DNA of 32,819 nt from Pseudomonadota bacterium (GTDB lineage Bacteria; Pseudomonadota; Gammaproteobacteria; Burkholderiales; Burkholderiaceae_C). A program made the translations under genes and the position numbers. Each line of letters starts with the position of its first letter. Within the stretch, counting starts at the first letter, position 1. The notes under the pieces were generated by a model, which searched no databases, was not told the DNA's origin, and worked only from the letters and a program-made list of their open reading frames with translations. Below are positions 11,905 to 32,699 of this stretch, in pieces. The stretch spans positions 1 through 32,819 of the forward strand of contig JAKAHP010000005.1 of NCBI GenBank assembly GCA_021825505.1, in the 5' to 3' direction.

Positions 11905-12277
11905 TTCCACCTCGCAGCCTGCAGGCTGCTCGGATTCGGCAGGCGCGCGAACGCGCTCGGCGCGGCGCCTGCCCGCGGGTCGACGATCAGGCGGCCGCGC
12001 ATGGCGGCCAGGTCGCGCATCGGCCAGATCGCCGGGCATGCGTGCGCGCGCCGCTGGAAAGTCGTGGATCACGCGATTCAAGCGCGGGCTTGCGCAAGGG
12101 TTGACGCGATTGAAACAACCCCCAGTGAACTTCGCAGATCAGCTCAATCAAAGTCTACAGATGCAGCGCTTTGCTGAATCTGTCGAGGATTGATCGGCGT
12201 CACACCGGTGTCCTCGGCTCCTGAGCCGGTGGGGCGTTGCCGCACGCGAGCACTGTGACGAGAGGGAGTTTCTCAAA

Positions 12278-14401
12278 ATGAAGCATTGCAAACCTGCACG
12301 CTGGACGCGTGCGCCGTTGGCCGCGTGCGTCGCCGCGGCGATGTTTGGTGGTGTGGCGACCGACGTGAGCGCGACGCTCACCCAGGCCGACAAATCGCAG
12401 GCTGGCCCGAGCGATACACAGCCGCACGCCCAGCGCCAAGGACTGGAGACCTTACGCCTTGTGCCGCAAAGCATCGACCAAAGCATCGACCAAAGCATCG
12501 ACCAAAGCATCGACCAAAGCATCGACCAACGCATCGACCAAAGCATCGCCCAAAAATCCCCCAAGTTTTCGAATTTGCGGGCATACAATTTCCAGCTCTC
12601 GGACTCGGACGATTCCGAGTTCGAGGTATGGCGTGCCTCGAACGCTGCGAGCACCGATCGGTCGGCGGCCAGAGCGTCGGTGTACGATCCGGCGCTGCTC
12701 CGGCTGCTGAAGCAGAAGTATCCGGAGCGGTGGAAGAAGCCGCAGGGCAATCGGCGTGCGGGTGCTGCGCATAAGCCCGCGGCAGAGTTGCGCGCTGCGC
12801 ATAACGAGCAGGCACGCGCTGGCCAAGCCGGCAAGGTCGACGCCCCACGCAAGGGGCACGACGTGGAATACCTTAAGCAGTTGGCGAAGCCGAGGTATCG
12901 GGCGCAGTCCGACACTCGGACTGGGCAGGCACAGCACGACGCTGCCGCCAGGAAGGTTGACACCAGACCCAAGTGGGGTCAGCGGCAGCCTGCGCAAAAG
13001 CAATACTCCAAGGAGCCTTATGGGCAGAAGCCTGTTCTCCGTGGCGCCGACGGCAAGGGACGCGTCGAGCGGAGTGCGTATGCGCAGTACGGCGCTGCTG
13101 AAAAGACCATCGCCCCGCGCGTGACGCAAGAGCCTCAAAAAGTGGTTTCGAAGCGCCTCGAATACCTGGCGACAAGTAAGAAGCGTCACCAGCCTGATTC
13201 TGGAATCGAGCGTGCGTACCAAGCGCCCTCGGCTTACGCCGCAAACTATGACTCGGCGCAGCTGAAAAAGCGCGGCATGCTGGATGAGCGTGGTCGCCCA
13301 GCCCCGGTCGAACAGCAAAACGCCCGACGCGTGACGCACAAGCCTCAAACGGTGGATCAGGCTCGCCTCAAGCACCTGGCGACAAGTAAGAAGCGTTACC
13401 AGCCTGATTCTGGAATCAAGCCTGCGTACCAAGCGCCCTCAGCTTACGCCGCAAACTATGAATTGGCGCAGCCGAAGAAGCGCGGCAAGGTGGATGAGTA
13501 TCGCCTCGAGCACCTGGCGACAAGTAAGACGCGTTACCAGCCTGATTCTGGAATCAAGCCTGCGTACCAAGCGCCCTCGGCTTACGCCGCAAACTGTGAA
13601 TTGGCGCAACCGAAGAGGCGCGGCAAGGTGGATGAGTATCGCCTCGAGCACCTGGCGTCAAGTAAGAAGCGTTACCAGCCTGATTCTGGAATCAAGCCTG
13701 CGTACCAAGCGCCCTCGGCGAACGCCGCTCTCCTTGAGTTGCCCGGTGCTGGAGCCGTTCAGGTGGTATCGACGAGCGTCACCGCGAACGCGCTCAGGAT
13801 CACCGATCAGCATTGTCTGTCGTCCACGCACGCCGTGCACTTGTTGCGTCTGCGCGCAGATCTGCCGCAGGCCTCGAACCCGGCTCTGGAGTTCGACGCG
13901 CCGGCGGAGCCGCAAACCCTCTCGCTGCGCGAGGTCTGGCACAATGAGATCGGCCACGAGACACCGGCCGTGATCCTGAGCCCGGGCCAAGCCCGCTCTG
14001 CCAGCGGTATTCGTAAGGCATGCAAGCCGAGCTGGGACATGAACCAGCGCTGCATTGTTCATTTCGAGCCGGCGCTGAACAGTGTGCCGGACGGCCATAA
14101 GGAATCGATCAAAGGGCTGATCGCTCGCGTCGACGAGCCCACGGACAGCAATGCCCCGTACATCGTGGTGCGTTATGAGGTCGCCAACGATTACATCGGA
14201 TGGGTCGCGGATGGCAAGCCCCAGATATCTGCGGAGCTGTCTGGCGCTTCGATGGATGCGAACGAGATGTTGAACGAGCCGGAGACTACCCCGGCGCGTG
14301 TCGACATCAAGCGAATCGGCAATGTCGAATTGGCGGTCTACAGCGTGCCGGAATACTGGCGTGCGTTGCGGGCTTTGGGATCTCAACCGGTGCAGGACTG
14401 A
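12278..14401 (+). CDS. P1: predicted secreted repeat-rich paralogue, type I C-terminus
   Basis: Signal peptide MKHCKPARWTRAPLAACVAAAMFGGVATDVSA; shares N-terminus with P2-P7; basic central repeats; C-terminus 'ITDQHCLSS..IARVDEPTDSNAPYIVVRYEV' shared with P2 and P4. Confidence 0.85.
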   Translation: MKHCKPARWTRAPLAACVAAAMFGGVATDVSATLTQADKSQAGPSDTQPHAQRQGLETLRLVPQSIDQSIDQSIDQSIDQSIDQRIDQSIAQKSPKFSNLRAYNFQLSDSDDSEFEVWRASNAASTDRSAARASVYDPALLRLLKQKYPERWKKPQGNRRAGAAHKPAAELRAAHNEQARAGQAGKVDAPRKGHDVEYLKQLAKPRYRAQSDTRTGQAQHDAAARKVDTRPKWGQRQPAQKQYSKEPYGQKPVLRGADGKGRVERSAYAQYGAAEKTIAPRVTQEPQKVVSKRLEYLATSKKRHQPDSGIERAYQAPSAYAANYDSAQLKKRGMLDERGRPAPVEQQNARRVTHKPQTVDQARLKHLATSKKRYQPDSGIKPAYQAPSAYAANYELAQPKKRGKVDEYRLEHLATSKTRYQPDSGIKPAYQAPSAYAANCELAQPKRRGKVDEYRLEHLASSKKRYQPDSGIKPAYQAPSANAALLELPGAGAVQVVSTSVTANALRITDQHCLSSTHAVHLLRLRADLPQASNPALEFDAPAEPQTLSLREVWHNEIGHETPAVILSPGQARSASGIRKACKPSWDMNQRCIVHFEPALNSVPDGHKESIKGLIARVDEPTDSNAPYIVVRYEVANDYIGWVADGKPQISAELSGASMDANEMLNEPETTPARVDIKRIGNVELAVYSVPEYWRALRALGSQPVQD
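12470..12553 (+). repeat. 12-nt in-frame tandem repeat (agcatcgaccaa), seven units encoding SIDQ
   Basis: Direct read: five exact plus two one-base-variant consecutive units. Confidence 0.95.
13157..13738 (+). repeat. Tandem protein-coding repeat in P1: one 210-nt unit, two 138-nt units and a partial unit
   Basis: Units start at 13157, 13367, 13505, 13643; consensus L-E-H-L-A-T-S-K-K-R-Y-Q-P-D-S-G-I-K-P-A-Y-Q-A-P-S-A-Y-A-A-N-Y-E-L-A-Q-P-K-K-R-G-K-V-D-E-Y-R. Confidence 0.93.
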
Positions 14402-14513
14402 TGAGTGCAGCGATGGGCGGGAGCAAGGGGTGGACGGCCAGGCGCGAGACGGCACCGAGGCTGTGCATCATCGCGCTCGCGCCCCGCGCTTGGGCGGCTG
14501 GGAGCGCGCCGCG

Positions 14514-15230
14514 ATGAGCCGTCTCAGTGTCGAGCGCATGCTGCAGTCGCAAGGCTTCGGCACGCGTCGACAGTGCCGGCTCCGGGTCCTTGACGGTCAG
14601 CTGCGCATCGCCGGCGAGGTGTTCGACGATCCCGACCGGGTGGTCGACACGGCGGGCTTGCAGTTCACGCTGCTCGACGAACCGTGGGTGTATCGCGAGC
14701 ATGTGTACCTGGCCTTGAACAAGCCGCCGGGCTACGAGTGTTCGCGCCGTCCCAGCCGCCACCCCGGCGTGCTCGGCCTGCTGCCCGAGCCCCTTCGGGC
14801 GCGCGGCGTGCAGCCGGTGGGTCGGCTGGACCACGACACCACCGGGCTGCTGCTGCTGTCCGACGACGGTGCGTTCATTCACGCGCAGTCGTCGCCGAAG
14901 CGCAAGGTCGCCAAGCATTACCTGGCGAGTACCGCGGAGCCGGTCGGCGCGGAGCTGGTCGCGGCGCTGCTGGCCGGCGTGCAGCTGCACGACGAGCCGG
15001 CCCCGCTGGCCGCGGTGCGGTGCGAGGTGGTCGACGCGCAGCGCATCGCGATCACGCTCGAACAGGGCAAGTACCACCAAGTCAAGCGCATGCTCGCCGC
15101 GGCCGGCAACCATTGTGTCGCATTGCAGCGGGTCGCTATCGGCGGGCTGCGCCTGGACGCGCTGGCACTGCCCGAAGGCGCCTGGTGCTATCTGGGCGAG
15201 CGCGAACTCGCGCTGCTGGCGCCGGTCTGA
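14514..15230 (+). CDS. rsuA: 16S rRNA pseudouridine synthase (RsuA family)
   Basis: 'LALNKPPGYECSRRPSRHPGVLGLLPEPLRARGVQPVGRLDHDTTGLLLLSDDG', 'LEQGKYHQVKRMLAAAGNHCVALQRVAIG'. Confidence 0.9.
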   Translation: MSRLSVERMLQSQGFGTRRQCRLRVLDGQLRIAGEVFDDPDRVVDTAGLQFTLLDEPWVYREHVYLALNKPPGYECSRRPSRHPGVLGLLPEPLRARGVQPVGRLDHDTTGLLLLSDDGAFIHAQSSPKRKVAKHYLASTAEPVGAELVAALLAGVQLHDEPAPLAAVRCEVVDAQRIAITLEQGKYHQVKRMLAAAGNHCVALQRVAIGGLRLDALALPEGAWCYLGERELALLAPV

Positions 15231-15243
15231 GGCGCGCGGCGCC

Positions 15244-15320
15244 CGGACCGGCTTCCTCGCCGGGCCGGCACGCAAGGCCGTGCGGCACAACGTCACGCTC
15301 AACAGCCTGCTGCCGGCGCC
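15244..15320 (+). pseudogene. Internal fragment of the SDR gene (relic)
   Basis: Encodes RTGFLAGPARKAVRHNVTLNSLLPAP, matching LTGFVAGLARKTVRHNVTINNLLPGP of the intact SDR (about 17850-17926). Confidence 0.85.
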
Positions 15321-15529
15321 GATCACACGACCCAAGCAGCGGCTTGCGCAGCGCTTGACGCGGTTGAAACAACCCACAGGGAACTACTCCGTTCAGTCTT
15401 ATCAAAGTCGATAGATGCAGCGTGTTGCTGGATCTGTCGAGGATGATCGGCGTAGCGCTGGTGTCTTCGGCTCCTGAGCCTGGGCGGCGTAGCCACCCGC
15501 GACTGACGTGACGAGACGGAGTCTGGACT

Positions 15530-17183: not shown

Positions 17184-17360
17184 CGCGATCACGCTTGAGC
17201 GGGGCAAGTAACATCAGGTCAAGCGCATGCTCGCCGCGGCCGGCAACCATTGTGTCGCATTGCAGCGGGTCGCGATCGGCGGCTTGCGCCTGGATGTGCT
17301 GGACTTGCCCGAGGGCGGCTGGTGCTATCTGGGTGAGCGCGAACGCGCGCCGGCCACGAC
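17184..17360 (+). pseudogene. 3' fragment of rsuA (5'-truncated, with nonsense codon)
   Basis: 'gcgatcacgcttgagcggggcaagTAAcatcaggtcaagcgcatgctcgccgcggccggcaaccattgt' matches the intact rsuA 3' end; TAC became TAA. Confidence 0.9.
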
Positions 17361-17371
17361 GAGGAGAAGAC

Positions 17372-18151
17372 ATGGATCTGGGCATCGCCGGGCGCCGGGC
17401 ACTGGTGTGCGCATCGAGCAAGGGTCTGGGGCGCGCCTGTGCGCTGGCGCTGGCGGCCGAGGGGGTCCATCTGACCCTGATCGCGCGCGGTGCCGACGCG
17501 CTGGCGGCGACTGCGCGGGAACTGCGCGAGCGCTGCGGCGTCGAGGTCACCGAGGTGGTCGGCGACATCACCACGCCGCAGGGGCGCGCGGCGGCGCTGC
17601 GGGCGGCCGGAGCGATCGACATTCTGGTGACCAACGCGGGCGGGCCGCCGCCCGGCGATTTCCGCGACTGGAGCCGCGACGACTGGATGCGCGCGCTCGA
17701 CGCGAACATGCTGACGCCGATCGAGCTGATCAAGGCGAGCGTGGACGGCATGATCGAGCGCGGCTTCGGCCGCATCGTCAACATCACCTCGGCGGCGGTG
17801 AAGGCGCCGATCGACGTGCTCGGGCTGTCCAACGGCGCGCGCAGCGGCCTGACCGGTTTTGTCGCCGGGCTGGCGCGCAAGACCGTGCGGCACAACGTCA
17901 CGATCAACAACCTGCTGCCGGGCCCGTTCGCCACCGATCGCCTGGCGGCGATCGCGCAGGCCCAGGCGCGGGCAAGCGGCGTCGCGGTCGACGCGATGCT
18001 GGCGCGACGCGCCGCCGAGAATCCGGCCGGGCGTCTGGGCGATCCGGCCGAGTTCGGTGCGGCTTGCGCCTTCCTCTGTTCGGCCAGCGCGGGCTTTGTC
18101 ACGGGACAGAACTTCCTGCTCGATGGTGGAGCCTATCCCGGCACGCTTTGA
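17372..18151 (+). CDS. SDR family oxidoreductase (intact copy)
   Basis: MDLGIAGRRALVCASSKGLGRACALALAAEGVHLTLIARG, 'ILVTNAGGPPPGDF', 'GLSNGARSGLTGFVAGLARKTVRHNVTINNLLPGPFATDRL'. Confidence 0.92.
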   Translation: MDLGIAGRRALVCASSKGLGRACALALAAEGVHLTLIARGADALAATARELRERCGVEVTEVVGDITTPQGRAAALRAAGAIDILVTNAGGPPPGDFRDWSRDDWMRALDANMLTPIELIKASVDGMIERGFGRIVNITSAAVKAPIDVLGLSNGARSGLTGFVAGLARKTVRHNVTINNLLPGPFATDRLAAIAQAQARASGVAVDAMLARRAAENPAGRLGDPAEFGAACAFLCSASAGFVTGQNFLLDGGAYPGTL

Positions 18152-18457
18152 CAGCCTGCTCGCGAGGGCACGGCACCTGCGCGGGTGCGTGCCGCGCAGC
18201 GCGCGAGCAGCAGCGGGCGCCGCGACCTGCCCCCAGGTGCCGGCGCTGGTCAACACGATGCGAGCAGCGGCTTGCGCACGGCTTGACGCGATTGAAGCAA
18301 CCCGCTGGGAACCACTCCGATCAGTCGAGTCAAACTCCAAGGATTCAGCGCATTGTTGAATCTATAAAGGGTGAACAGCGTCACGCCGGTGTCTTCGGCC
18401 CCTGAGCCGGCGTGACGTAGCCACCCGCGAGTGACGTGACGAGACGGAGTTGGGAAG

Positions 18458-19957: not shown

Positions 19958-20201
19958 TCAGATGCGACGCGAACCGGCCGACCTGTGCGCCGGTGCTGGC
20001 CGCCGGAAATCCGAATTGAGCACGGCTTGACGCGATTGAAACAATCCCCAGGGAACCACTCCGAACCTGTCTATCAAAGTCCATAGATGCAGCGTTTTGC
20101 GGAATCTGTCGAGGGTTATCGGCGTCACGCTGGTGCCTTCGGCTCCTGAGGTGGCGGGGCGTTGCCACCCGCGACTGACGTGACGAGACGGAGTTTGGAC
20201 C

Positions 20202-21777: not shown

Positions 21778-21960
21778 CGCGATCACGCTCGAACAGGGCA
21801 AGTAACATCAGGTCAGGCGCATGCTCGCCGCGGCCGGCAACCACTGCGTCGCATTGCAGCGGGTCGCTATCGGCGGCTTGCGCCTGGATGCGCTGGACTT
21901 GCCCGAGGGCGGCTGGTGCTATCTGGGTGAGCGCGAACGCGCGCCGGCCACGACGAGGAG
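21778..21960 (+). pseudogene. 3' fragment of rsuA, second copy (same truncation junction and same nonsense codon)
   Basis: 'gcgatcacgctcgaacagggcaagTAAcatcaggtcaggcgcatgctcgcc'. Confidence 0.9.
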
Positions 21961-21965
21961 AAGAC

Positions 21966-22193
21966 ATGGATCTGGGCATCGCCGGGCGCCGGGCACTGGT
22001 GTGCGCATCGAGCAAGGGTCTGGGGCGCGCCTGTACGCTGGCGCTGGCGGCCGAGGGGGGCCATCTGACCCTGATCGCGCGCGGTGCCGACGCGCTGGCG
22101 GCGACTGCGCGGGAGCTGCGCGAGCGCTGCGGCGTCGAGGTCACGGAGGTGGTCTTCCTGCTCGATGGTGGAGCCTATCCCGGCACGCTTTGA
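21966..22193 (+). pseudogene. SDR copy with in-frame internal deletion (75 aa left of 259)
   Basis: ..GVEVTEVV|FLLDGGAYPGTL; 552 nt missing relative to 17372-18151, joining the SDR N- and C-terminal ends. Confidence 0.9.
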
Positions 22194-22499
22194 CAGCCTG
22201 CTCGCGAGGGCACGGCACCTGCGCGGGTGCGTGCCGCGCAGCGCGCGAGCAGCAGCCGGCGCCGCGACCTGCCCCCAGGTGCAGGCGCTGGTCAACACGA
22301 TGCGAGCAGCGGCTTGCGCACGGCTTGACGCGATTGAAACAACCCGCTGGGAACCACTCCGATCAGTCGAATCAAACTCCAAGGATTCAGCACCCTGTTG
22401 AATCTATAAAGGGTGAACAGCGTCACGCTGGTGTCTTCGGCCCCTGAGCCGGCGTGACGTAGCCTCCCGCGACTGACGTGACCAGACGGAGTTGGGAAG

Positions 22500-22990: not shown

Positions 22991-23191
22991 CGCCGTGGAT
23001 CCGAATTAAGCACGGTTTCACGCGATTAAAACAAGCCACAGTGAACTCCGCAGGTCAGTTCTATCAAACTCCATAGATTCATCGTTTTGTTGAATCTGTC
23101 GAGGCAGATCGGTGTCACGCCGGTGTCTTCGGCCCATGAGCCGGTGTGGCGTAGCCACCCGCAACTGACGTGACGAGACGGAGTTTGGAAG

Positions 23192-24673: not shown

Positions 24674-24712
24674 GCCGGGCGCCAGGGTGATCCGGCCGAA
24701 TTGAGCACGGCT
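24674..24712 (+). pseudogene. SDR 3'-region relic
   Basis: 'ccgggcgccagggtgatccggccgaattgagcacggcttg' resembles 'ccgggcgtctgggcgatccggccgagttcggtgcggcttg' in the intact SDR (about 18028-18066). Confidence 0.6.
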
Positions 24713-24886
24713 TGACGCGATTGAAACAACCCGCTGGGAACCACTCCGATCAGTCGAATCAAACGCCATGGATTCAGCGTTTTGCGGAGTCTGTCGAGGG
24801 TGATCGGCGTCACGCTGGTGTCTTCGGCTCCTGAGGCGGTGGGGCGTTGCCCCTCGCGACTGACGAGACGAGACGGAGTTTGGAAG

Positions 24887-28550: not shown

Positions 28551-28684
28551 GCTCACCTGCATCTGATGCTGCAATGCGTTCGAGCTGAGCCAGATGAAAC
28601 GGAGCTCGGGAACTGGGTGCTGAAACCAGATCTAATTCAATAGATCAAGCATTTCGCTGGATCATTGAAAGAAGGATCGTGATC

Positions 28685-29980
28685 ATGCCCACTCCTGACT
28701 CGAATGCTCCACGCATGCGACGTGCTCGCCTGACCGGTGGCTTGGCCCTGGCAGTGTGCGGCATGGTGCTGTTCACCCTGGCACAGGACAAGGCCTGCGC
28801 CAGCGACGCGCCGCCGTTGGCGCAAGACCAGCGTGCCGCGCTCGAGCGCGCGCAGCAGCACCACGATGAACAATTGGCGCGCAGGCGAGCGAAAGCCGAG
28901 AGCTTGCGCCAGGCGCAGTTCAAGGACCCGTTCCTGCGCGACGCGCCGGCGGTGGCGCAAGACCAGCGTGCCGCGCTTGAGCGCGCGCAGCAGCACCACG
29001 ATGAACAATTGGCGCGCAGGCGAGCGAAAGCCGAGAGCTTGCGCCAGGCGCAGTTCAAGGACCCGTTCCTGCGCGACGCGCCGGCGGTGGCGCGGGCGCG
29101 GGTCGAGCATCCCGAATATGCGCATGCACTGCTGAAGTCGAAGATCAGGAAGGAAGAAGCTCGGTTCGAACGCATGATGCGCGCGGTCCAGCCGTCGACG
29201 CTCGCGCAGCAGCGCGCAAAGCAGCGGAAAAAGCTGGAGACCAAGGTCGTTCGCGCACCGTTTGGCGACGAGGAAAGCGGCAGTGTGCTCGATCTTCGCT
29301 CGCATGCGGCGCAAGCGGTTGATGCGCGCCAGCCGAAGCGCGCCCCGCGACGCGTCGTTGCGCAAGGAGAAGGCGCCCGCGCTGGCGATGCGCCGCGGCC
29401 GGTGGTGCTGTGGCGCAACAAGCCGGTGGCCACCACCTCGGGCGCGGAGGCGGTCCGCATGGTGTTGCGCAGCATCGCCTACCTGCATGGTCGTGGCGAT
29501 CCGTGGTACCAGCAGGCGCGCACCTTTGCCGGCGCGGTTGGTCAGGGGCATGCGTCGGCCAGTTTCGATCAGGTCTGGCGCGGCACGCTGGGCTTGGGCT
29601 ACCGCACGCTGCCGATGGTCGCCGAGGGCAATCTGCGCGCCAGGATCGACCAGGCCATCGACGACACCAGCCTCGATACGGCGACGCTCGACAGCGCACT
29701 GATCGCATTGCCGCGGCCGATGCGCTTTGCCGACCTGCCGCAGCGCGATCGCATAGTCGCGGTGGTCGCACGCAGCGAGCCGGGCGGCGCCACCACGTCG
29801 CGCTACGTGGTGGCGGCGAAGCTCCAGCCGGATGACGCCGAGTACTCGGTCTTGACGGCGAAATGGGGTCCTGACGGGACGATGGGGCTGAGCACAAAGC
29901 GCCTGCGCACGATGAAGGAGCCCAGGCTGGTGATGGATCAGGTGGAGTACGTGATCTATCGGCCGCGCGCGTTGTACTGA
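28685..29980 (+). CDS. P8: predicted secreted paralogue, type III C-terminus, divergent N-terminus
   Basis: Signal peptide MPTPDSNAPRMRRARLTGGLALAVCGMVLFTLAQDKACA; C-terminus 'QVWRGTLGLGYR..DDTSLDTATLDSALIALPRPMRFADLPQRDRIVAVVARSEP..QVEYVIYRP'. AGGA upstream of ATG 28685. Confidence 0.85.
   Translation: MPTPDSNAPRMRRARLTGGLALAVCGMVLFTLAQDKACASDAPPLAQDQRAALERAQQHHDEQLARRRAKAESLRQAQFKDPFLRDAPAVAQDQRAALERAQQHHDEQLARRRAKAESLRQAQFKDPFLRDAPAVARARVEHPEYAHALLKSKIRKEEARFERMMRAVQPSTLAQQRAKQRKKLETKVVRAPFGDEESGSVLDLRSHAAQAVDARQPKRAPRRVVAQGEGARAGDAPRPVVLWRNKPVATTSGAEAVRMVLRSIAYLHGRGDPWYQQARTFAGAVGQGHASASFDQVWRGTLGLGYRTLPMVAEGNLRARIDQAIDDTSLDTATLDSALIALPRPMRFADLPQRDRIVAVVARSEPGGATTSRYVVAAKLQPDDAEYSVLTAKWGPDGTMGLSTKRLRTMKEPRLVMDQVEYVIYRPRALY
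28805..29074 (+). repeat. 135-nt in-frame tandem duplication in P8
   Basis: Two units (28805-28939, 28940-29074), nearly identical, encoding DAP[PA][LV]AQDQRAALERAQQHHDEQLARRRAKAESLRQAQFKDPFLR. Confidence 0.95.
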
Positions 29981-30088
29981 CGCGGCGGGGGGAGGCGCTC
30001 ACGCGCCTCTGATGAACGGCTGCGCCGCGCATAGGCCAGGCGAAAACGAGGTGCAGGAACGCAAGGCATGAGGCTCCTCTAAAGAACA

Positions 30089-30111
30089 GGATCCCGCGCC
30101 GTGCGGGATCC
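30089..30111. promoter_or_regulatory. 5'-leader hairpin GGATCCCGC-gccgt-GCGGGATCC upstream of P9
   Basis: Perfect 9-bp stem, 5-nt loop, ending 20 nt before the P9 ATG. Confidence 0.55.
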
Positions 30112-30131
30112 GTGACATAAGGATCTGCACC

Positions 30132-31541
30132 ATGCTTTCAATCGCATCGAGCTCGCCGCGCAAGCGGCGCGTGCCGCTGGTCGCCGGGATGGCGCTGGCC
30201 TTGTTCGTGCTGGCGCTGGACGACGCCTGTGCCGGCGGCGCGCAGGGCCGGCCGCGCCAGATCACGCCGCTGCCCGGCAACCAGCTGAGCTTGCTCGACT
30301 TCAGCTCGCTCGACTTCAGCGACCCGCGCGACATACTGCGCGTGCCGCCTACGCGGGTGCTGAAGCATCCCGACCGCCAGGATGCGGCCGTGCTCGCCTG
30401 GCAGCTCGACGCGAAGCTGATGGCGCAGCGGCACGCCCGGGAAGCAGGTGAGCGCAAGCGCGAGCGCAGGGATCCGTACCAGACCGGCGCGTGGAAGCTG
30501 GAGTGGCTCGAGCAATCCGAGCACGCCAGGGTGACAATGGAACAACTCGTCGAGCAGGCGAAGCAGGCCCACCAGCGGGCGATGCAAGAGACGCAGCGCA
30601 CGCCGAAGCCCAAGCTGAAGTCGATCCTCAAGCAGGCGAAGCCGACCCACGAGCAGGCGGTGCACGCGACTCAGCCGAAGCCCAAGCTGAAGTCGATCCT
30701 CAAGCAGGCGAAGCCGATCCACGAGCAGGCGGTGCACGCGACTCAGCCGGAGCCGAAGCGGCTCGCCGTTCAGAGCGCCGCTCAGCGTCGCGATCCGCAG
30801 GGCAAGATCAACCGCGGCCGTTTCGCCAGCGAGGAGCGCGGCAACCTGAGCGATCTGCACGATAACCGGGGGACGGGGCGCGAGCTGCGGCCACGCTCGC
30901 TCGCCCCGCTCAAACCCATGGCAGCGCATTTGGGCGCTGGCTACCGGGATCCTGGGGTGCAAGCGGTGGCGCAGTGGGAGGGGACGCCGCTGGAGACGGC
31001 ATCAAGCCTTGAAGCGGTGCGCATGGCGATGCTCCACATCAAGTATTTCAACGGCTCCCACGACGCGCGGCAGACGGAGGCGCAATCGACCATCAACGCC
31101 TATATTCCGGCGCGGGACGGCGCCAGTTTCGACGACATCTGGCGCAACACGCTGGGATTGACTTACCGCCCGTTGCAAGCGCCCTGCGGCGATGTGCGCG
31201 CCGCGATCGAGCAGAGCATCGACGATCCCAGCCTCGACAACTCGCAGGTCGGCAGCGCGCTGATCGCGCTGCCGAGGCCGATGCGCTTTGCCGATCTGCC
31301 GCAGCGCGAGCGCATCGCGATGGTGATCGCGCGCAGCGAGCCTGATGGCGTATCGGCGCCACGCTATGCGGTCATCGGTCGCCCCGAGCCCGATAACGTC
31401 AATTTCCGCGTGGCCTGCCCGCGCTGGCATGACGACGGTGCGATGAGCATGACGATCGAGCGGCTGTCCAAGGTCAGCAAGACGACCTTGACGATGGATC
31501 GGGTGGTGTACGTGATCTATCGGCCGCTGCCACCGTCCTGA
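30132..31541 (+). CDS. P9: predicted secreted paralogue, type III C-terminus
   Basis: Signal-peptide-like MLSIASSSPRKRRVPLVAGMALALFVLALDDACAGG; C-terminus 'DIWRNTLGLTYR..DDPSLDNSQVGSALIALPRPMRFADLPQRERIAMVIARSEP..VVYVIYRPLPPS'. Confidence 0.85.
   Translation: MLSIASSSPRKRRVPLVAGMALALFVLALDDACAGGAQGRPRQITPLPGNQLSLLDFSSLDFSDPRDILRVPPTRVLKHPDRQDAAVLAWQLDAKLMAQRHAREAGERKRERRDPYQTGAWKLEWLEQSEHARVTMEQLVEQAKQAHQRAMQETQRTPKPKLKSILKQAKPTHEQAVHATQPKPKLKSILKQAKPIHEQAVHATQPEPKRLAVQSAAQRRDPQGKINRGRFASEERGNLSDLHDNRGTGRELRPRSLAPLKPMAAHLGAGYRDPGVQAVAQWEGTPLETASSLEAVRMAMLHIKYFNGSHDARQTEAQSTINAYIPARDGASFDDIWRNTLGLTYRPLQAPCGDVRAAIEQSIDDPSLDNSQVGSALIALPRPMRFADLPQRERIAMVIARSEPDGVSAPRYAVIGRPEPDNVNFRVACPRWHDDGAMSMTIERLSKVSKTTLTMDRVVYVIYRPLPPS
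30603..30746 (+). repeat. 72-nt in-frame tandem duplication in P9
   Basis: PKPKLKSILKQAKP[TI]HEQAVHATQ twice (30603-30674, 30675-30746). Confidence 0.95.
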
Positions 31542-31784: not shown

Positions 31785-31817
31785 ATGCATGGCCGGTCCG
31801 ACCTTCGAGGAATAGCC

Positions 31818-32699
31818 ATGACGACTCCAGGAGCTGCCTTCCGCGCCGCGCTCAAAGCCGAATCGCCGCTGCAGGTGATCGGTGCGATCAACGCCAACCA
31901 CGCGCTGCTCGCGCGCCGCGCCGGCTACCGCGCGATCTATCTGTCGGGCGGGGGCGTCGCCGCCGGCTCGCTGGGCATGCCCGACCTGGGCATCAACACG
32001 CTCGACGACGTGCTGACCGACGTGCGCCGCATCACCGACGTGTGCGATCTGCCGCTGATCGTCGACATCGACACCGGCTTCGGCCCGAGCGCGTTCAACA
32101 TCGCGCGCACGGTCAAGAGCCTGATCAAGTTCGGCGCCGCCGGCTGCCACATCGAGGACCAGGTCGGCGCCAAGCGCTGCGGCCACCGTCCGGGCAAGGA
32201 AATCGTTCCGGCCGCCGAAATGGCCGATCGTGTGCGCGCCGCCGCCGACGCCAAGACCGACCCCGACTTCTTCCTGCTGGCGCGCACCGACGCGCTCGCC
32301 GTCGAAGGCGTGGAGCCGGCGCTGGAGCGCGCGCGGCTGTGCGTCGAGGCCGGTGCCGACGGCATCTTCGCGGAGGCGGTGCCCGACCTGGCCACCTACA
32401 AGCGCTTCGTCGACGAGCTCGGCGTGCCGATCCTGGCCAACATCACCGAATTCGGCAAGACGCCGCTGTTCACGCGCGACGAGCTCGCGTCGGTCGGCGT
32501 GGCCATCGCGCTGTATCCGCTGAGCGCGTTCCGCGCGATGAACAAGGCCGCCGAAATGGTCTACGAGACGCTGCGGCGCGAAGGCACGCAGCGTACGATC
32601 ATCGACCAGATGCAGACCCGCGAGGAGCTGTACGACCGCATCGGCTACCACGACTACGAACAGCGCCTCGACGCCGTGTTCGCGGCGACGCGCAAGTAA
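31818..32699 (+). CDS. prpB: 2-methylisocitrate lyase
   Basis: 293 aa; '[40 protein letters not shown]', '[44 protein letters not shown]'; RBS gaggaa. Confidence 0.96.

Follow-up and report, generated by a model that had tools for sequence, protein, structure and literature searches.

A putative ECF promoter, followed at a fixed distance by a stem-loop, in front of an array of genes for predicted exported proteins

Promoters of RpoE (sigma-E, ECF02), such as rpoH P3, carry a -35 box GGAAC and a -10 box TC(A/T)AA separated by approximately 17 bp, with an A-rich region upstream. The RpoE consensus has been given as approximately GGAACTT for the -35 and TCAAA for the -10 (PMC12153292), and GGAACTT appears as an RpoE box in another study as well (PMC8103513). 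At the RNA level, short stem-loops stabilise the 5' ends of mRNAs for exported proteins, as in ompA and papA of E. coli and vacA of H. pylori. Structured 5' ends hinder RppH and RNase E (PMC3997798), and the 5' stem of the H. pylori vacA mRNA lengthens its half-life, with a stronger effect under stress (PMC4843948). In tandem arrays of exported proteins that diversify rapidly, the 5' ends with signal peptide and leader are conserved and the gene bodies divergent, and degraded copies and mosaic segments occur.

The window analysed here, a stretch of 32,819 nucleotides (contig 98 of a draft assembly of 426 contigs that is 81% complete), holds an array of genes with features of each of these systems. 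Its genes, termed P1 to P9, are preceded by boxes, spacing, and A-rich upstream sequence like those of RpoE promoters. As in RpoE systems, whose products are envelope or exported proteins, the P proteins are predicted to be exported, and the genome has genes for RpoE and for an RseA-like protein. Unlike RpoE promoters, the -35 of most copies lacks the final TT, an inverted repeat stands at a fixed position after the -10, and the composite element is confined, within the 28 same-genus genomes searched, to one gene family. As in ompA, papA, and vacA, a short stem-loop lies at or near the expected mRNA 5' end of a putative exported protein, whereas the stem of the P genes is locked to the promoter at 6 nt, is repeated over an array of paralogues, and covaries, and its stabilising role is presumed. 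The array resembles the tandem arrays described above in its conserved leader and signal peptide, its diverging gene bodies, and its degraded copies and mosaic segments. It differs in that the P family matches no model of Pfam or NCBIfam and that its members were detected in 4 of the 28 same-genus genomes but in no other genome sampled from the taxonomic family.

The P genes and the extent of their leader block

All nine P genes lie on the forward strand and are predicted to encode exported proteins, based on signal-peptide-like N-termini recognised by inspection. They are P1 (12278-14401), which belongs to no known family, P2 (15530-17098), P3 (18458-19912), which has the shared C-terminal domain, P4 (20202-21692), P5 (22500-22920), P6 (23192-24592), P7 (24887-26287), P8 (28679-29980), and P9 (30132-31541). 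P5 is a degraded gene: its signal peptide is read in frame 1, and its C-terminal domain is split between frames 3 and 2. P8 has a different signal peptide, and both P8 and P9 have the C-terminal domain in common with the family. Searches of the P proteins against Pfam and NCBIfam gave nothing above the cut-off. The C-terminal domain of approximately 190 amino acids was recognisable in the 4 same-genus genomes mentioned above, and a profile search of 401 genomes from the taxonomic family, with the best eight candidates per genome scored and G008, G018, and G025 absent from the same-genus genomes listed, found it in no further genus. A wide protein scan returned the record of G008 itself (MAG LL7.bin22) as the sole match, and a PDB sequence search with the C-terminal profile gave nothing significant. 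The structure model of the domain (window positions 29384-31538) had a pLDDT of 77 and a pTM of 0.80. A papain-like or ubiquitin-specific protease fold was not adopted, the Foldseek matches being non-significant (best E 0.025, TM approximately 0.25); no conserved Cys/His pair was seen in the domain by eye.

Among P1, P2, and P4, dN/dS was approximately 1 over the full length, with values of 1.5-2.6 in some stretches of 100 codons, which suggests diversifying selection or relaxed constraint. The P gene bodies diverge more than the pseudogene fragments of the same duplication. Just past the signal peptide region of P1, a 12-bp repeat (CAAAGCATCGAC, encoding SIDQ; 12467-12554) occurs approximately seven times, and a segment of 135 bp in P8 is duplicated in tandem and in frame with 98% identity (28803-29072).

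The original prediction of a conserved block upstream of P1 to P7 was confirmed by alignment. The block extends over approximately 185 bp, and all seven leaders can be aligned without indels apart from one or two bases in P1: 12090-12277 for P1, 15344-15529 for P2, 18272-18457 for P3, 20016-20201 for P4, 22314-22499 for P5 (before the frameshifted, degraded gene), 23006-23191 for P6, and 24701-24886 for P7, each followed by its start codon (12278, 15530, 18458, 20202, 22500, 23192, and 24887, respectively). The similarity runs on into the signal-peptide codons; pairwise identity was 73.8-95.1% for the leaders and 81.8-98% for the signal-peptide DNA. When a 300-bp leader query was used to search the genome, it gave seven strong matches, all on this contig and none beyond it, and in 27 same-genus genomes it gave just weak fragments of 28-44 bp. 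The block is thus real, given the seven alignable leaders, the matches of the 300-bp query, and the identity of 74-95%.

The predicted contrast between conserved leaders and diverging gene bodies holds for distant copies and is reversed for sister copies. P6 and P7 are 81% identical in their leaders against 96% in the first 100 bp or so of coding sequence, and P2 and P4 are 83% identical in their leaders against 90% in mid-gene.

The array consists of repeated duplications of a unit of a P gene, rsuA, and an SDR gene, and the gene fragments left by the same duplications served as a neutral control. The rsuA 3' fragments are 89-95% identical and the SDR fragments 85-98%, against 74-87% for the leaders (95% for P3/P5). 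The P1/P2 (78%) and P2/P4 (83%) leaders fall below the fragments of their own units, and the P3/P5 leader compares with 98-100% for its SDR flank, which was duplicated together with it. Since leader identity does not exceed that of the pseudogene fragments, the block as a whole is not conserved beyond the age of the duplications. For the leader as a whole, this is the outcome that the original prediction had named as refuting it. Most of the block is thus alike through duplication, and the clear functional signal is limited to sub-elements. Three tandem copies of the unit have decayed in a complementary manner (14471-15230, 15232-15324, 17184-17350, 17355-18151, and 21778-22193): copy 1 retains rsuA and an SDR stub, copy 2 the SDR gene and an rsuA stub, and copy 3 neither.

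Several leaders are mosaic, P7 most clearly, which supports to a degree the proposal that gene conversion uses the leader as a homology tract. The P7 leader has the exact sequence of P4 in alignment columns 101-126, resembles P5 in columns 127-178, and returns to a P4-like sequence in columns 179-230; at the informative sites of columns 114-180 it is P5-like in 17 of 18 cases, and not otherwise. In a mosaic test, 15 of 100 triplets, which are non-independent, reached p<=0.01. These mosaic leaders support exchange between copies as well as duplication.

Putative promoter boxes and the stem-loop after the -10

All seven leaders of P1 to P7 contain GAAC-N17-TCAAA, with G or T before GAAC, followed by a stem-loop. 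The -35, -10, and stem-loop are located, in this order, at 12126-12130 (TGAAC), 12148-12152 (TCAAA), and 12159-12181 in P1; at 15380-15384, 15402-15406, and 15413-15435 in P2; at 18308-18312, 18330-18334, and 18341-18363 in P3; at 20052-20056, 20074-20078, and 20085-20107 in P4; at 22350-22354, 22372-22376, and 22383-22405 in P5; at 23042-23046 (TGAAC), 23064-23068, and 23075-23097 in P6; and at 24737-24741, 24759-24763, and 24770-24792 in P7. P5 is degraded as a gene, yet its boxes and stem are intact and its changes fall in the loop.

Upstream of both P8 and P9, the sequence GGAAC-N17-TCTAA was found on the same strand with a stem-loop of the same kind. The composite element of P8 spans 28609-28664 (GGAAC 28609-28613, TCTAA 28631-28635, stem-loop 28642-28664) and that of P9 spans 30056-30111 (GGAAC 30056-30060, TCTAA 30078-30082, stem-loop 30089-30111). 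The P8 and P9 leaders gave no blastn match to those of P1 to P7 and are otherwise not alignable with them. The distance between the -10 and the stem is exactly 6 bases in all nine genes.

Including related genomes, the -35 is GGAAC at 11 of 15 sites, TGAAC in P1, P6, and G008P9L, and AAAAC in G008X1; the TT extension to GGAACTT is present at some sites only. The gap between -35 and -10 is exactly 17 bp in P1 to P9, in X1 and X2 of G008, and at the G018 and G025 sites, and 18 bp in G008P9L; the -10 of site G018d is CCTAA. In an ungapped logo of ten divergent sites, the invariant positions (10/10) are AA at -12/-11 relative to the -35, corresponding to a conserved A-pair approximately 11 bp upstream of it, AAC of the -35, AA of the -10, T of GAT, and G of the inner GC. 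Two other promoter readings were dropped: a sigma-70 reading of TTGACG, which by eye had no acceptable -10 at the proper spacing and does not occur in P8, in P9, or in the other species, and an upstream GAAAC read as a SigW -35 (TGAAAC), which had no matching -10.

Within P1 to P7, conservation was 100% for the -10, 90% for the -35, and 82-84% for the stem, against 64% for the spacer, 66% for the 6-nt gap, and 63% for the loop (boxes vs spacer, gap, and loop, Fisher p=0.0005); the 36 bp upstream of the -35 reached 86% and the remaining UTR 82%. These values bear on the explanation that, as a block, the leader plays no particular role and is conserved only through the recent duplication of the units and its use as a homology tract for exchange. 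Although the equal or greater similarity of the rsuA and SDR fragments and the mosaic leaders fit it, the variation among P1 to P7 falls in the spacer, the gap, and the loop, and the promoter and stem recur at P8, P9, and the genes of other species, where nothing else is similar. It is refuted for the promoter and stem, and for the leader as a whole we hold it to be distinctly improbable.

The stem of P1 to P9 has 9 bp and a 5-nt loop, RGAT-nnnGC-nnnnn-GCnnn-ATCY, and the logo shows TT at loop positions 3-4 in 8 of 10 sites. The P9 stem is perfect (GGATCCCGC GCCGT GCGGGATCC), P3 has 9 of 9 pairs, and P4 (7 of 9) and P8 have two mispairs each. The GATTCA-N9-TGAATC dyad, which had been read as clearest in P3, P5, and P6, is exact in these three and is contained in this stem-loop. 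The second predicted stem, GGCTC/GAGCC, did not hold up: one pair is broken in five of seven copies (GAGGT in P4, GAGGC in P7, and GGCCC in P3, P5, and P6) with no compensatory change.

When the leaders were scored for covariation, as the original prediction had proposed, the signal was limited to the first stem. Over 13 sites, which are related sequences and some of which were chosen by eye once the pattern was known, 89.7% of the stem cells were standard pairs and 10 cells were changed on both sides, so this covariation supports rather than proves an RNA stem. None of 500 shuffles reached the observed pairing or the both-side changes, and sliding the partner by one column lowered the pairing to 30-42%. 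The centre of the arms varies with pairing kept (TA, CG, and GC at pair 5; AU, CG, GC, and UG at pair 7). These results support selection on the RNA pairing of the first stem. No covariation was counted in the GGCTC/GAGCC stem or the rest of the 5'-UTR, including a larger hairpin at UTR columns 24-60.

The inverted repeat could also be a DNA operator for a dimeric regulator acting alongside the ECF promoter, not an RNA hairpin. The palindrome overlaps the expected +1, its ends GAT..ATC are strongly conserved and its loop is semi-conserved, and the stem is missing from the minimum-energy fold predicted for the complete leader in P1, P4, P7, and P8. However, arm centres that change in sequence with pairing kept are less expected for the half-sites of one protein, and the stems of G018a, G018c, and G025b, which are shorter and shifted by two bases, have different arm sequences again. 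On balance, an operator seems unlikely to us, and an RNA stem-loop is the reading followed below.

The 5'-UTR is long and GC-rich, and P3 (z -3.4) and P5 (z -3.2) fold better than shuffled sequences, as a riboswitch, thermosensor, or other sensory RNA might. However, the other copies gave z values of -0.6 to -1.3, an Rfam search of the window found no match, stems beyond the first lack covariation, and P8 and P9 have almost no UTR past it. We give a sensory RNA very little credence, and the promoter-linked stem-loop remains the preferred reading.

Occurrence in related genomes and the candidate sigma factor

Among the 28 same-genus genomes, the pattern GAAC-N16..18-TCWAA-N7-GAT-N15-ATC matched eight sites in this genome (P1 to P6, P8, and P9), one in G008, and no further site; the reversed-pattern control gave 0 matches. 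P7 misses the exact pattern with GAGTC in place of GAATC. A covariance model built from the 13 sites gave strong matches (E approximately 1e-12 or better) at family loci only. Weak matches in G018 (C45, inside an unrelated ORF) and in G014 (stem only) were judged to be chance.

The promoter, the spacing, and the stem-loop also precede homologous genes in three other species, G008, G018, and G025. G008 has three sites, namely X1, X2, and one that runs into the P9 orthologue, which is split over a contig end; the element lies before three genes in G018 and before one in G025. The G008 locus has the same flanks as the present one, namely wrbA-like, rsuA, SDR, and multicopper oxidase genes, P9, and the match of the ORF at 31785-32699, which adjoins the P9 orthologue there. 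Just three family genes, two of them inverted, lie between the SDR and oxidase genes of G008.

The genome encodes RpoE (TIGR02939, 266 bits, above the cut-off), followed directly by an RseA-like gene whose protein scores weakly, and it also encodes other ECF factors. In the genus, GGAACTT-N14..16-TCTRA gave 33 matches, against approximately 10 for the reversed control. The gene rpoH is a classical sigma-E target, and reading of the loci revealed GGAACTT-N16-TCTAA before rpoH in two species of the genus. Just upstream of rpoE in this genome no matching promoter site was found, nor was the exact box found upstream of its own rpoH; RpoE, rather than another ECF factor, is therefore likely and not proven. 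On these grounds, RpoE is the leading candidate and the likely sigma factor for the P-gene promoters.

A recurrent GGAACTTTCC...CTCTGA was seen in several same-genus genomes, at L116 and L121 (G009:C60 and G004:C488) and at L092, L102, L105, L111, L119, and L120. In L116 and L121, it lies approximately 80 bp upstream of a Phage_GPD (VgrG-like hub) gene, which hints at ECF control of a contractile-injection component.

A possible link between envelope stress and mRNA protection

The shared promoter or 5'-UTR regulator suggested by the original prediction can be sharpened to an RpoE-like ECF promoter and a stem-loop at constant spacing, which recur at P8, P9, and in the three other species. On the sequence evidence, the leader is probably a family-specific promoter of the RpoE type with a 5' stem-loop at a fixed distance that would most plausibly stabilise the mRNA. 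The ECF promoter GGAAC-N17-TC(A/T)AA would drive each exported-protein gene. The stem starts 6 nt past the -10, where ECF starts are expected, and transcription would thus begin at about the base of the stem with its 9 bp and 5-nt loop. With such a start, the mRNA of each exported protein would begin with the stem-loop or within a base or two of it. The stem-loop would most likely shield the transcript against pyrophosphate removal and RNase E entry, as would be fitting for genes induced under envelope stress. The remaining 95 bp or so of the leader carries the ribosome-binding site, and its likeness among P1 to P7 is mainly the result of tandem duplication of the units and of exchange of segments between them.

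We propose, tentatively and with some doubt, that the ECF promoter and the start-site stem-loop may form a new promoter class, a single locked cassette of approximately 60 bp that serves one fast-diversifying exported family, is copied and exchanged among paralogues, and couples envelope-stress transcription to mRNA protection. A search of the literature for arrays of paralogues in which an ECF promoter is coupled to a start-site stem-loop found nothing relevant.

The analysis offers an example of how, in the conserved leader of paralogues, a functional core can be told apart from a remainder that is shared through duplication. The signature of approximately 60 bp could be used to recognise further members even where the proteins have diverged beyond easy recognition. 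For this uncharacterised, fast-evolving exported family, it gives a concrete regulatory hypothesis, namely that its genes may respond to envelope stress through an ECF sigma factor.
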